IMG/VR virus record: IMGVR_UViG_3300037487_001246
Span: 1-30,856 of that record
Length of the DNA: 30,856 nt
Strand: one strand, 5' to 3'
Origin: a virus
The position numbers and the translations under genes are program-made. Position 1 is the stretch's first letter. Every line of letters begins with the position of its first letter. The notes beneath the pieces were generated by a model, which was not told the origin of the DNA, made no database searches, and saw only the letters and a list, made by a program, of their open reading frames with translations. Below are positions 5,879 to 30,856 of the stretch, piece by piece.

Positions 5879-6024
5879 CTGCGCACGACGCTGGCGACGC
5901 GGTCGCAGACCGAGGCGACAGAGAGATAGAGCGTGAGACCGACGACGACGAACAGGAAACACGCCTCGCGCAGGAAGATCCGCGCTGCGCTCTCGTCGGG
6001 TCGGTCGTCGTAGTCGTCGTTCAT
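5875..6024 (-). CDS. 49-aa single-pass membrane protein
   Basis: A short frame encoding an acidic, Asp-rich N terminus (residues 2-11), one hydrophobic helix at about 22-40 (ACFLFVVVGLTLYLSVAS) and a short basic tail, giving a likely N-out orientation. AAGGAG lies eight bases before the ATG at 6024, and the ATG overlaps the upstream stop (6021). Both ends are coupled to neighbours, which supports real translation. Its function is unknown; it could be an additional holin or antiholin-type peptide. Confidence 0.6.
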   Translation of the reverse strand: MNDDYDDRPDESAARIFLREACFLFVVVGLTLYLSVASVCDRVASVVRR

Positions 6025-6419
6025 TTCGTCGGCTCCTTGAAGCAATCCCAGCCGCGCCGTGCGGCGTGTTCAACCCTCAGAGTCGAGAGCCGAACATTCG
6101 ATCCCAGCAGAGACAAGTTCTCTGCCGTTCTCTCACAAGCCTCCCGCCGCGCTTCGTCGCGCTCGCGGATCGCTTCGTCGCGCTCCTCGCGCGCTTCATC
6201 GCGCTCGGAACGCCAAGCGTTCTCAATTCGTATCCGTCCTGTTTCGTCAATCTCGTTCAATCGGATCGCTAGGTCGCGCTCACGACGCGCCGCGTCGCGC
6301 TCGCAAACCGCCGCTCGACGCTCACGAATCTCCGCATCAAAATCTAAACGGAATTGATCGATCTCGATGCGTAGTCTTTGATTGTCGTCGAGAACGGTGG
6401 CAAGATCGCTCGCGCTCAT
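6021..6419 (-). CDS. Coiled-coil protein with repeated RERDEA motifs
   Basis: A 132-aa, highly charged protein predicted to be one long coiled coil from about 10 to 110. Residues about 40-98 are built from imperfect repeats of the type ERDEAxRE/RERDLA, a seven- to eight-residue charged repeat. The last 20 residues, with a WDCF segment, differ. The start at 6419 overlaps the upstream stop (ATGA). No enzymatic motif is present; a spacer or scaffolding role is possible but unsupported. Confidence 0.65.
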   Translation of the reverse strand: MSASDLATVLDDNQRLRIEIDQFRLDFDAEIRERRAAVCERDAARRERDLAIRLNEIDETGRIRIENAWRSERDEAREERDEAIRERDEARREACERTAENLSLLGSNVRLSTLRVEHAARRGWDCFKEPTK

Positions 6420-6869: not shown

Positions 6870-7250
6870 TTAGGTTGCTTCCCAGACGCGAGCGTTCCGT
6901 CCGCTGCGCGTCTTTCGTTTCGTTGTCGCGATCACCGCGCCCGAGTTCATCAAGCCATTGATGGCGGCGCTCGCCGATTGATGCGTGAGTTCAAGCGCGA
7001 TCTCGACCTCATCGCAGGTCGATGGAGTCGCGCGAATGTGCGCGAGGATTCGCGCAGGCTGATCACCGAGACGCTGCGCGTACGCTTCGTCCTGCGTTGC
7101 CCAGCGCGTCTCCTGGTGTCGCGTGGATCTTGGAGGATCGACCGTTGCGAAGCGCGCGTTGGTCGGCGCTGGCGGCTGCGTTGGGAGATTTGCTGCGAAG
7201 AGCGGCGAGACGCTCCAGTCGGTTCGCGTCGCGTAGTTTTTGTCGCTCAT
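6870..7250 (-). CDS. Winged-helix DNA-binding protein
   Basis: A 126-aa protein. Residues about 65-126 look like a winged helix: ARILAHIRATPSTCDEVEIA, then SASAAINGLMNSGAVIATTK, then the basic wing KRKTRSGRNARVW. This matches small phage and MarR-like wHTH proteins that sense or regulate by DNA binding. The first 60 residues are Pro-, Thr- and Ala-rich and probably disordered. The only sensible start, at 7250, lies 188 bases inside the upstream coiled-coil gene, so the disordered N-terminal region is encoded in two frames. The Shine-Dalgarno is weak. Confidence 0.65.
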   Translation of the reverse strand: MSDKNYATRTDWSVSPLFAANLPTQPPAPTNARFATVDPPRSTRHQETRWATQDEAYAQRLGDQPARILAHIRATPSTCDEVEIALELTHQSASAAINGLMNSGAVIATTKRKTRSGRNARVWEAT

Positions 7251-7644
7251 GCAATGCCTGCTTCATTTGTTGTGCGGCGAGTTTGTCCGCTCTAGTTTTT
7301 TGAGATGCTTCGCGGTTCTTGTTTTCGAGGCTGCGGAGTTTGCTCGTCACGCGATCGAGGCGCGCTTCAAGCGCGTTGAGTTGCACTAAGTGCGCGTCAA
7401 CTAGATCGCGCCATCCGTTCGGCTTGCAGTATGTTTCAGTCGTCAAGCCGTATTGCGCAAGCGCTTTCAGTACATCGCGCATCGCAACTTCGAGTTGTAT
7501 ATTCCGCTCTTCCGCGAGCCGCAGGTTTTCTCGCGTTGAGCGCAGGTCGATCACATCGAACTTGCGCCTTTCGTTCTCCACCAACGGCGCGAAAGACCGC
7601 GCGAAGGCGGCTTCTTGTTCGAGTCGTGTTTCGTTGTCGCTCAT
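7063..7644 (-). CDS. Coiled-coil protein, unknown
   Basis: A 193-aa charged helical protein. Residues about 20-150 have heptad-like spacing, with a non-coiled insert (QYGLTTETYCKPNGWRDLV) at about 64-82. The basic, low-complexity last 60 residues overlap the winged-helix gene, and it is unclear which frame is constrained there. The start at 7644 overlaps the stop of the CsrA-like gene (ATGA). No known family was recognised. Confidence 0.6.
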   Translation of the reverse strand: MSDNETRLEQEAAFARSFAPLVENERRKFDVIDLRSTRENLRLAEERNIQLEVAMRDVLKALAQYGLTTETYCKPNGWRDLVDAHLVQLNALEARLDRVTSKLRSLENKNREASQKTRADKLAAQQMKQALHERQKLRDANRLERLAALRSKSPNAAASADQRALRNGRSSKIHATPGDALGNAGRSVRAASR

Positions 7645-7838
7645 TCTGCGCGCTCCTCTATGGCTTGCGCGACGGCGCGCGTGATGCGAACCGACTGGTC
7701 AAAACAAAACGCGACCTTGATCTTTGCGTCGTTCGGAATGCGCTTGATCGTGACCGTTCCGATTTCAACGCCGCCGATGGCGAGCGTGATTTCGTCGTCC
7801 TCGCGCATATTGCGCAGTATGCATCCGCGTTTTTTCAT
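7641..7838 (-). CDS. csrA-like: CsrA-like RNA-binding regulator
   Basis: A 65-aa protein whose strand pattern fits the CsrA/RsmA family. LAIGGVEIGTVTIKRI aligns with the IG-x-V-x-V-T-V core, and IKVAFCFDQSVRITRA aligns gaplessly with the stretch ending in the conserved VxVxR, keeping the RNA-contacting Arg (R54). CsrA dimers bind GGA motifs, often at Shine-Dalgarno sites, to block or alter translation. The N-terminal LxLxRR segment is only partly kept and the following Glu is replaced, so divergence is clear. A GGAGG lies seven bases before the ATG, and its context CACGGAGG is itself a CsrA-type site, hinting at autoregulation. Length matches the family. Confidence 0.55.
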   Translation of the reverse strand: MKKRGCILRNMREDDEITLAIGGVEIGTVTIKRIPNDAKIKVAFCFDQSVRITRAVAQAIEERAE

Positions 7839-8107
7839 ATCGCCTCCGTGCTGGCTCGGCTCCCAGCGTCGGTCGGCGCGAAGCCGACCGACGCGCTGAG
7901 GAGACGAGCATCCGCATCCTGCGGGTTCAGCGGCTCGGAGTGTAACCGAGTGCGGAACGCGCAAGCGCGGCGAATCCACATAAGCGCGCGCGCTTCGTCG
8001 AGCGTCGTCGGCTCGGTGCGCGCGGCGATCGCGGCGAGACCGTCGCAGACGCGAGAGGATAGATGAGGTCGGCGGTCGGTTCCTGACGCTTTTTCATTCA
8101 TCATCAT
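7835..8107 (-). CDS. Hypothetical protein
   Basis: About 90 aa, beginning at one of three tandem ATGs (8107, 8104, 8101). The central helix (ARALMWIRRACAFRTRL) is amphipathic. No family was recognised. The stop overlaps the start of the CsrA-like gene. Its 3' part contains a perfect 12-bp stem (7866-7894) that would fold just upstream of the CsrA-like start. Confidence 0.55.
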   Translation of the reverse strand: MMMNEKASGTDRRPHLSSRVCDGLAAIAARTEPTTLDEARALMWIRRACAFRTRLHSEPLNPQDADARLLSASVGFAPTDAGSRASTEAI

Positions 8108-8345
8108 AAGTCCCAACCAAAGTCATTCCGTCTGGTAGTTTCGCCTGCGCCGCCGCCGCCAACAAAAGCGCAAGAAATTCGACTCTCTTAGCAAGAAATT
8201 CCAGCCGTTCGAGATCTTCTGTTACTCCTGCTTTTTTTCGCAGCATATTGCTGAATTTCAAAGCGTGCGCCATTCCCAAAATCGCCGCGCAGGTTGGAAC
8301 CGCTTCGGACAGTGGAAGAGAGATAGAGACGATTGGATCTTTCAT
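8094..8345 (-). CDS. Hypothetical protein, paralogue of 8342-8623
   Basis: An 83-aa protein starting at 8345 (MKDPIVSISL), coupled to the gene upstream by a four-base overlap. It shares with its neighbour the N-terminal pattern P-x-VSISL-x-L and a following A-A-I, then a helix ending in LA-x-LLLAA. The C terminus is short and acidic. This looks like a tandem duplication. Function is unknown. Confidence 0.65.
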   Translation of the reverse strand: MKDPIVSISLPLSEAVPTCAAILGMAHALKFSNMLRKKAGVTEDLERLEFLAKRVEFLALLLAAAAQAKLPDGMTLVGTYDDE

Positions 8346-9131: not shown

Positions 9132-9160
9132 GGTGTCTCGATTCTGCGGCATCGTGCCGC
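9132..9160 (-). promoter_or_regulatory. Hairpin leader element, copy D
   Basis: RNA-sense hairpin GCGGCA-CGA-TGCCGC (9146-9160, six perfect pairs), then AGAATCGAGACACC and the ATG of the 75-aa gene. The hairpin and its flanks are almost identical to copy C at 9724-9760. Confidence 0.75.
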
Positions 9161-9219
9161 GTTGGTTCATGCGGAGTGCATGGCGAGAGAGCGCATCGCT
9201 GCGCTCGCTCACCGCAGAC

Positions 9220-9723: not shown

Positions 9724-9760
9724 TTGTCGTCTCGATTTCTGCGGCATCGTGCCGCGTTGG
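9724..9760 (-). promoter_or_regulatory. Hairpin leader element, copy C
   Basis: RNA-sense CCAAC, then the GCGGCA-CGA-TGCCGC hairpin (9741-9755), then AGAAATCGAGACGACAA and the ATG at 9723. It is shared with copy D almost base for base through the hairpin. Confidence 0.75.
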
Positions 9761-9797
9761 TTTCTTGTCTCGCGGAGAGCGTCTCTGCGACGGAAGT

Positions 9798-29736: not shown

Positions 29737-30856
29737 TCAGATGACTCGCATGAGTAAGGGTCTCCGTGATCTTCGCGCGAGAACCGCGAGAGCAAGCGCG
29801 CACACTCCGTCGTCGTGACCGACCGTCGCTTCATACGCGACTGCGCCTCTCCCTCCATATCGGAATCCGAACGACTCTAGTTCAGCGCGAAGCCAGCCGT
29901 CGGGGAAGCGGATCTCGCGCGTTTGGATCGCGATTTGAAGACCTTCCATGAGTTGTTGCTTGCTCGGCTGCGTGAACTTGAAGCCTTCAGCCTTGCGGCA
30001 AACTTTCTTGATGTCCTCGACAATTGGATCGCCAACGCCTGTCGAATCGATTTGCGCTGGCTTGTCGCCGATCATCTTCGCGAGCCGCTCGCGCGTGACT
30101 GTCCACGGCGCTTGCCATCGTTCTGATCGACAGACGCGCCCTTCGGCATCGAGCGCGATCGCGACCGACCAATCGACGCTCTTCGCGAGATCAACGCCCC
30201 AGCACTCGGGATCGGCTGCGGAAATCGGCGCGATGCACTCGCGGATTGCATCGATGCCAAACGGATTGCCGCCGTCTTCTGCGGGTATCCCTTCCATCTC
30301 TTGCTTGAAGACTGCGTCGGGCAACATCTTGCGAGCCATCTCTATTTCGTCTGCGCTCATCAGCGGATTCGATGCGCTACCCAAACGGAACGCGCGCCAG
30401 TTGCCCGAGTCGTCCGTCTCCGCTTGCAGGTAGAGCCGATGGAAATCTCCGCAGCCTTTCGGCGTACCGAGAAACAGCGCGCGACCGCGACGGTCTGCGA
30501 GCGTCGGGTAAATCGAAGCGCGCCACGCGTTGAGCAGGTCAGGCGCGAAGCCTGCTTCGTCGATGATCACCAGGTCATACGACCGACCGCGTCCACTGTC
30601 TGCATCTTCAAGCGTCCAGAAGTCAATCGCGCCGCCCGTCTTAAACTCCATGCGTTTCTCGACGCGATCAATGCGAGTCGCAATCGGCTTCAACGCGCGC
30701 TCAAAATCGCGCATCGGTTCAGCAAGGAACTTGTAGGTCGGCGCGAACCATCCGACGCACTGCTTAGCGATGATCGCGTCGATGCTGAGTTGCTGCGCAA
30801 AGGTCGTCTTTCCCCAGCGCCGCCCGATCTCAAGCACGCTGAAGCGCGCGAGACCT
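29737..30856 (-). CDS. terL: Terminase large subunit, main part (partial at window edge)
   Basis: Main part of the packaging motor. The sequence shows Walker A (GRRWGKTT), an adenine-side TYK segment, a Walker B-type motif (LVIIDEAG) and a C-terminal RNase H-like nuclease domain with acidic residues in GVDLAKSVDW, DSTGVGDPIVE and HDDG. The protein is open at the right window edge and is completed by bases 1-191. The whole product of about 393 residues is short but normal for compact phage terminases. The stop at 29739-29737 lies two bases before the portal start, so packaging motor and portal are co-expressed. The family assignment is firm; the exact start codon is less so. Confidence 0.93.
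   Translation of the reverse strand, partial: GLARFSVLEIGRRWGKTTFAQQLSIDAIIAKQCVGWFAPTYKFLAEPMRDFERALKPIATRIDRVEKRMEFKTGGAIDFWTLEDADSGRGRSYDLVIIDEAGFAPDLLNAWRASIYPTLADRRGRALFLGTPKGCGDFHRLYLQAETDDSGNWRAFRLGSASNPLMSADEIEMARKMLPDAVFKQEMEGIPAEDGGNPFGIDAIRECIAPISAADPECWGVDLAKSVDWSVAIALDAEGRVCRSERWQAPWTVTRERLAKMIGDKPAQIDSTGVGDPIVEDIKKVCRKAEGFKFTQPSKQQLMEGLQIAIQTREIRFPDGWLRAELESFGFRYGGRGAVAYEATVGHDDGVCALALAVLARRSRRPLLMRVI
30728..30853. repeat. Terminal direct repeat, right copy
   Basis: Exact copy of 1-126. The last three bases of the window (30854-30856) do not match bases 127-129 and may be an assembly-end error. Closing the circle at this overlap gives a genome of about 30,727 bp. Confidence 0.9.

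Follow-up and report, generated by a model that had tools for sequence, protein, structure and literature searches.

Does the small open reading frame (ORF) that a first-pass annotation had taken for a phage-encoded CsrA-like gene deserve that name, and is its expression controlled at its own start codon by a protein of this type? The locus lies in the window, the whole stretch of 30,856 nucleotides that was analysed, and its genes are the following:

7641..7838, minus strand: the CsrA-like protein of 65 aa, with an ATG start and a TGA stop, recognised from its ORF, family, codon bias and model

7835..8116, minus strand: an upstream ORF, the 3' end of which holds the whole leader described below, and the stop of which overlaps the CsrA-like start (ATGA)

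7063..7644, minus strand: a downstream gene with no function assigned, the start of which overlaps the CsrA-like stop (ATGA)

The 65-aa ORF, MKKRGCILRNMREDDEITLAIGGVEIGTVTIKRIPNDAKIKVAFCFDQSVRITRAVAQAIEERAE, is present as annotated and reads from 7838 to 7641, on the minus strand, a detail that had been left unstated. Against the copy in the sister phage (L001/L002), which shares 94% protein identity, base changes number 4, 1 and 16 at codon positions 1, 2 and 3, with 15 silent and 4 replacement codons; because the changes are biased to the third position, the ORF is a real protein gene under purifying selection. The overlap with the downstream gene is arranged equally in L001.

Regarding the genome, the window corresponds to a phage of ~30.7 kb, with a major capsid protein, a terminase, a RecT-like annealing protein and a C5 cytosine methylase. 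Perfect direct terminal repeats of 126 bp occur at 1-126 and 30728-30853, so the record is probably a complete phage genome, circularly closed or terminally redundant. A further ORF at 6419..6021 (minus strand) contains tandem 21-bp repeats at 6141-6203 that encode an Arg/Glu-rich, coiled-coil-like stretch.

As for the distribution of the gene, relatives were gathered with RecT, capsid and terminase queries, and a profile of the small protein was then run over the whole records, giving 28 distinct members, all from related uncultured phages. Fifteen records related by capsid or terminase and no shorter than 28 kb were examined, the window among them; each has the gene, which is therefore a core gene of a clade of ~30-kb uncultured tailed phages; more distant phages that have only RecT in common lack it. 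Relatives of the family were found neither in the collection of isolated phages nor in a scan of 84,980 bacterial and archaeal genomes, and no canonical CsrA was found elsewhere in the window phage or in four of its relatives. Some members (L211, L212, L213 and L220; for example L212:1474-1737) continue past the CsrA-like part into a zinc-ribbon-like C-terminal extension (CxxC...CxxC).

The term CsrA-like has to be earned through these relatives, since the window protein alone gives no CsrA match in Pfam, NCBIfam, PHROGs or the PDB sequences, and the link becomes visible because the relatives are included. The sole Pfam match of the L207 protein, GCVVLVRKEGERVSLSIDGEPLGYIDIAEILGEKVRMAFCCDKRLRIMREEIK, is CsrA (PF02599; E 8.8e-4, model positions 3-47 of 53), and the same family is the sole match of L208 (E 1e-3). 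Overall, Pfam CsrA is matched by 6 of 22 members, exceeding every other Pfam family, with none of them at the gathering score and the best one at 19.6 bits against a curated cut-off of 27. The NCBIfam csrA model (TIGR00202) matches three members and is the best NCBIfam match for L207, which also came first when a local CsrA model was run over the ORFs of the collected contigs, yet without significance (E 1.1).

Profile comparisons point in the same direction. When the family profile was searched against all PDB sequences, RsmN ranked second and RsmF third, behind a repeat-protein artefact. Alignment of the family with CsrA and RsmN together by hhalign scored above all 150 of 150 column shuffles; with CsrA alone the score was equalled by 1 of 150 or 3 of 300 shuffles, and the hhalign probability for CsrA was only 3 to 8%.

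Among individual residues, the C-terminal VRITR stands in the window protein as described by the annotation, and its Arg54 aligns with Arg44 of CsrA, at VHRE. Arg44 of CsrA and the corresponding Arg62 of RsmN are required for RNA binding (PMC7366521, PMC3791407). The annotation's point about VRITR holds as far as the alignment goes, Arg being present in 22 of 28 distinct members, with the reservation that the other 6 do not have it. The GxxAP loop that precedes beta5 in CsrA is not kept; the family has A-F/L-x-F-D there, and L010 has FPKDV.

The structure models add to this picture. In single-chain models, AlphaFold2 predicted five strands in the window protein (E4-11, E16-21, E24-30, E40-47 and E50-55; pLDDT 81), in the CsrA order that had been proposed for it, and five strands as well in L270, the same protein as L207 (E8-15, E19-25, E28-34, E43-50 and E53-59; pLDDT 86). 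In a Foldseek search of the PDB, the first match of the L270 model was RsmN (4krw; probability 0.97, TM 0.57/0.53, E 0.35). For the window model, no CsrA-family structure appeared among the matches listed and nothing fell below E 0.3, so that structure prediction, which the annotation had suggested as a check, recovered the strand order and returned no CsrA for the window protein itself. The suggested check was to look for a domain-swapped dimer; RsmN is a dimer without domain swap (PMC3791407), so a swap is not obligatory in the superfamily.

The same searches bear on whether the protein is a CsrA relative at all, or another small beta protein, such as an MCE/MlaD-like piece or an unnamed phage fold, with a resemblance due to the convergence of short amphipathic five-strand sequences. 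Besides the missing CsrA matches of the window protein alone, in the libraries as in the Foldseek listing, this reading draws on NCBIfam MCE (TIGR00996): 6 of the 22 members hit this model (best E 5e-5), against three for csrA, and the window protein itself hits it at 1.4e-4. The MCE match, however, spans about 40 of 291 model positions, and the hhalign alignment to Escherichia coli MlaD is limited to 11 columns around GxxxG, with a score reached by 6 of 150 shuffles, whereas the alignment to RsmN is whole-domain. MlaD is also absent from the best 50 Foldseek matches of L270 and from the family-profile search of PDB sequences in which RsmN and RsmF rank second and third. MCE proteins are membrane-anchored and larger; the phage protein has only 65 aa in full, and no membrane segment is evident in the members listed. 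Given the short match, the 11-column alignment and the lack of a whole MCE domain, an MCE/MlaD identity was judged less likely, and we regard an origin outside the CsrA superfamily in general as unlikely.

Each of these lines is weak, and in combination they speak for a strongly diverged member of the CsrA/RsmN superfamily. The name CsrA-like holds at this superfamily level, and with the help of the relatives rather than of the single protein; being below the curated cut-off, the protein is not filed as CsrA.

Comparison with known systems places the family more precisely. Its nearest PDB match, obtained with the L270 model, is RsmN/RsmF from Pseudomonas aeruginosa (PDB 4krw, 4kji and 4k59), the start of which, GFLILSRREGEGITL, resembles GCVVLVRKEGERVSL in L207 and GALAITRREGEKIFL in L212; a conserved Arg near the C-terminus (R62 in RsmN) is common to both. 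In RsmN an inserted helix redirects the chain (PMC3791407), whereas the phage family has ~3-4 extra residues at this point and no predicted helix, and its overall similarity to RsmN is far under family cut-offs. With CsrA/RsmA/RsmE (PF02599) the family shares the five strands in order and the RxxGD/E turn, and the VxIxR that ends its last strand aligns with the CsrA VHRE; GxxAPxxV of CsrA is instead AFxFDxxV, and the C-terminal helix is not confidently predicted.

CsrA-type genes on mobile elements have precedents: 30 of 2517 phage genomes carry csrA/rsm genes (PMC7366521), RsmQ is a plasmid-borne regulator of this type (PMC9928087), and our tblastn search found CsrA-type genes in 85 of 50,697 phage records. 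The phage CsrAs of Vibrio VvAW1 and Xanthomonas PhiXhv-12 have an insertion of 2-3 residues in the same turn as the present family. The known phage and plasmid CsrAs are near the chromosomal CsrA, with at least 48% identity in those listed; unlike them, the family described here escapes a search with E. coli CsrA, lacks relatives among the isolates of the phage collection and possesses its own conserved leader.

This leader precedes the start codon, and its elements in the window are:

7842..7847, minus strand: Shine-Dalgarno (SD) sequence GGAGGC, 9 nt before the ATG, complementary to GTCTCC and including the GGA of CACGGAGG

7860..7863, minus strand: upstream GGAG copy at -25, an alternative partner of GTCTCC and a possible decoy SD

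7866..7894, minus strand: inner hairpin with a 12-bp stem, a 100% complementary inverted repeat, and the loop UUCGC

7900..7905, minus strand: GTCTCC, the anti-SD arm, 67 nt before the ATG

The annotation had seen a CsrA-type site here, and CACGGAGG, at 7850..7843 (minus strand), does match the CANGGANG consensus. Sites of this kind number 14 in the window against 12.6 expected; of the 29 distinct leaders collected, CANGGANG is matched by just two, from the window and from the sister phage, and the SDs of the family do not preserve ANGGA. The match was accordingly rejected as evidence for CsrA control, because of its chance frequency and lack of conservation, and CACGGAGG is an ordinary SD sequence: the fit to the consensus is real, its reading as a CsrA-type site does not stand.

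The annotation also mentioned copies A and B of a hairpin leader that place GGA beside a hairpin at a start codon. Exact 26-bp repeats exist at 9142-9167 and 9737-9762 (minus strand), with the hairpin GCGGCA-CGA-TGCCGC, and each lies a short way ahead of a possible start codon, belonging to a different small gene in the two cases. The sister phage L001 has three copies of a 19-nt core of the repeat, and L006 has one. The repeat may serve early genes as a recurring regulatory leader. If they are the copies that were meant, the hairpin is there, and GGA, looked for between the hairpin and the ATG, is absent.

The stronger finding is a larger conserved element, the leader of the CsrA-like gene itself, which the annotation had seen only in part. 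Of 29 distinct upstream sequences, 28 contain GTCTCC, at -51 to -77 from the start; the SD is GGAGAC or GGAGGC, both complementary to GTCTCC, at -9 to -12 in 26 of the 29, and the whole order, GTCTCC, long hairpin and GGAG(A/G)C as SD, is likewise found in 26 of 29. L003 and L008, without GGAG near the start, and L210, without GTCTCC, have lost the leader in part or entirely and offer natural controls for it. It is common for two or three GGAG copies to adjoin the hairpin, and the GGA copies are located in stems or linkers rather than in the loops of hairpins. A 4-nt overlap with the upstream ORF (ATGA or TTGA) occurs in all but 2 of the 29 leaders, and in L281 this ORF has only 9 open codons. 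Protein coding does not account for the conservation of GTCTCC, because the frame of the upstream ORF in which it falls differs among the relatives, with all three represented.

The hairpin between GTCTCC and the SD has an uninterrupted stem of 9 to 18 bp across the family; the 19 different stems vary in pair type at every position, with the pairing maintained. Pairing was counted per stem position, as stem lengths were too variable for a fair column alignment, and shuffles rather than pair counts serve as the control, since the stem was chosen as the best for each sequence: against dinucleotide shuffles, folding of the whole leader gave z values from -2.5 to -7.0 across the family and -3.0 for the window. 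The loops are often of the GNRA type (GCAA, GAAA and GUAA), recurring in several lineages, as expected for a role at the RNA level. No family of Rfam 15 was matched by the leader above gathering; the matches were weak and chance-like.

Regarding its specificity, the window has a single leader motif where 0.13 would be expected. When 1.87 Mb of DNA was screened for GTCTCC, hairpin and GGAG(A/G)C, the sense hits were confined to the CsrA-like gene and four unrelated, chance-like places, the remaining hits being reversed readings of the same leader element. Control of other early genes by the phage protein, also put forward by the annotation, gains no support, the leader motif being found only at the CsrA-like gene; nor does any evidence speak for a hijacking of the host's Csr system, which the annotation had offered as an alternative. 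Finally, a pattern built from the leader and the DNA just upstream, run on the viral collection, retrieved L281, which encodes a new member of the family.

The same observations weigh on another reading, in which the inverted repeat is no SD switch: it would serve in DNA, as an operator or a site of recombination, or else as an attenuator or an RNase site. GTCTCC...GGAGAC is an inverted repeat in DNA too, and the motif is nearly identical on the opposite strand. The stem sequences, though, vary freely with pairing kept, whereas a DNA operator would keep its sequence; moreover, the loops are often of an RNA type, the 3' arm lies at SD distance from the start (-9 to -12) in 26 of 29 leaders, and the hairpin of the window is not followed by a U-run. 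Such a role is, in our judgement, highly improbable.

As an RNA element, the leader would exist in alternative pairing states. In the ensemble predicted for the window, GTCTCC pairs with the SD with a mean probability of 0.80 and with the upstream GGAG copy with 0.11; in that of the sister phage L001 the preference is reversed, with 0.03 for the SD and 0.71 for the upstream copy. Of 26 leaders, 16 are predicted to keep the SD mostly paired (P >= 0.8) and 10 to leave it partly or largely free. This distribution points to a balance of closed and open forms, which ribosomes coming from the upstream gene could shift, as perhaps could the CsrA-like protein.

SD-sequestering hairpins are known to couple the translation of overlapping phage genes. 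The present leader resembles them in its 4-nt start/stop overlap and in an SD held within a stem, close to where the upstream gene ends. It differs from SD hairpins in general in that the sequestering helix is nearly invariant and the inner hairpin freely variable, and in that many members hold two competing GGAG copies.

From this anatomy of leader and overlap, we infer translational coupling of the following kind. The last part of the upstream gene would form an RNA leader made of GUCUCC, a stable long hairpin, GGAG(A/G)C as SD, and the start codon; GUCUCC would pair with the SD and hide it in the cell or, in many members, pair with a second GGAG copy and free it. Ribosomes at work on the upstream gene would unfold the leader and begin again at the overlapping start codon, re-initiation being favoured by the start/stop overlap, and the CsrA-like protein would be made only upon translation of the upstream gene. 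The protein itself, small and five-stranded, is probably a dimer that would bind GGA RNA through the Arg of VRITR, as judged from its family. Because each GGAG copy contains GGA, it may bind the copies in its own leader and shift the balance; such autoregulation is a guess. Control of the gene at its own start codon, as the annotation had supposed, is hence plausible from the conserved SD-sequestering leader, and not from the match to CANGGANG.

The leader might, on the other hand, be a device for translational coupling or tight repression only, and the CsrA-like protein might have other targets. Pairing of GTCTCC with the SD and the ATGA overlap suffice for coupling, neither ANGGA nor CANGGANG is conserved, and the GGA copies lie outside hairpin loops. 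CsrA usually binds GGA within such loops. RsmN also binds ANGGA in unstructured RNA (PMC3791407). Against a device of this limited kind, the two or three GGAG copies commonly found beside the hairpin would fit a dimer that engages GGA at two sites, and the leader is confined to the CsrA-like gene rather than spread over other overlapping genes. We consider this reading a serious possibility, if not the probable one.

The best explanation of the locus is, with some confidence, a far-diverged regulator of the CsrA superfamily with a coupled, possibly autoregulated leader that hides the SD. A bolder version is rather doubtful: this branch of the superfamily would be a core, phage-specific translational regulator that remodels its own two-state leader, in which GUCUCC picks either the SD or the second GGAG, both of them GGA sites.

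In conclusion, phage csrA genes are known, mostly described as near copies of the host CsrA. The family described here is outside the reach of the searches that found them, below the curated cut-offs, and its leader is absent from Rfam. Its leader offers a direct and cheap way to test autoregulation, and its 28 natural variants, some without the key Arg, are a ready set for asking which residues matter. If the proposed reading is true, a far-diverged branch with its own RNA element, present in every near-complete genome of the clade, would mean that phages run CsrA-type control in their own programme.
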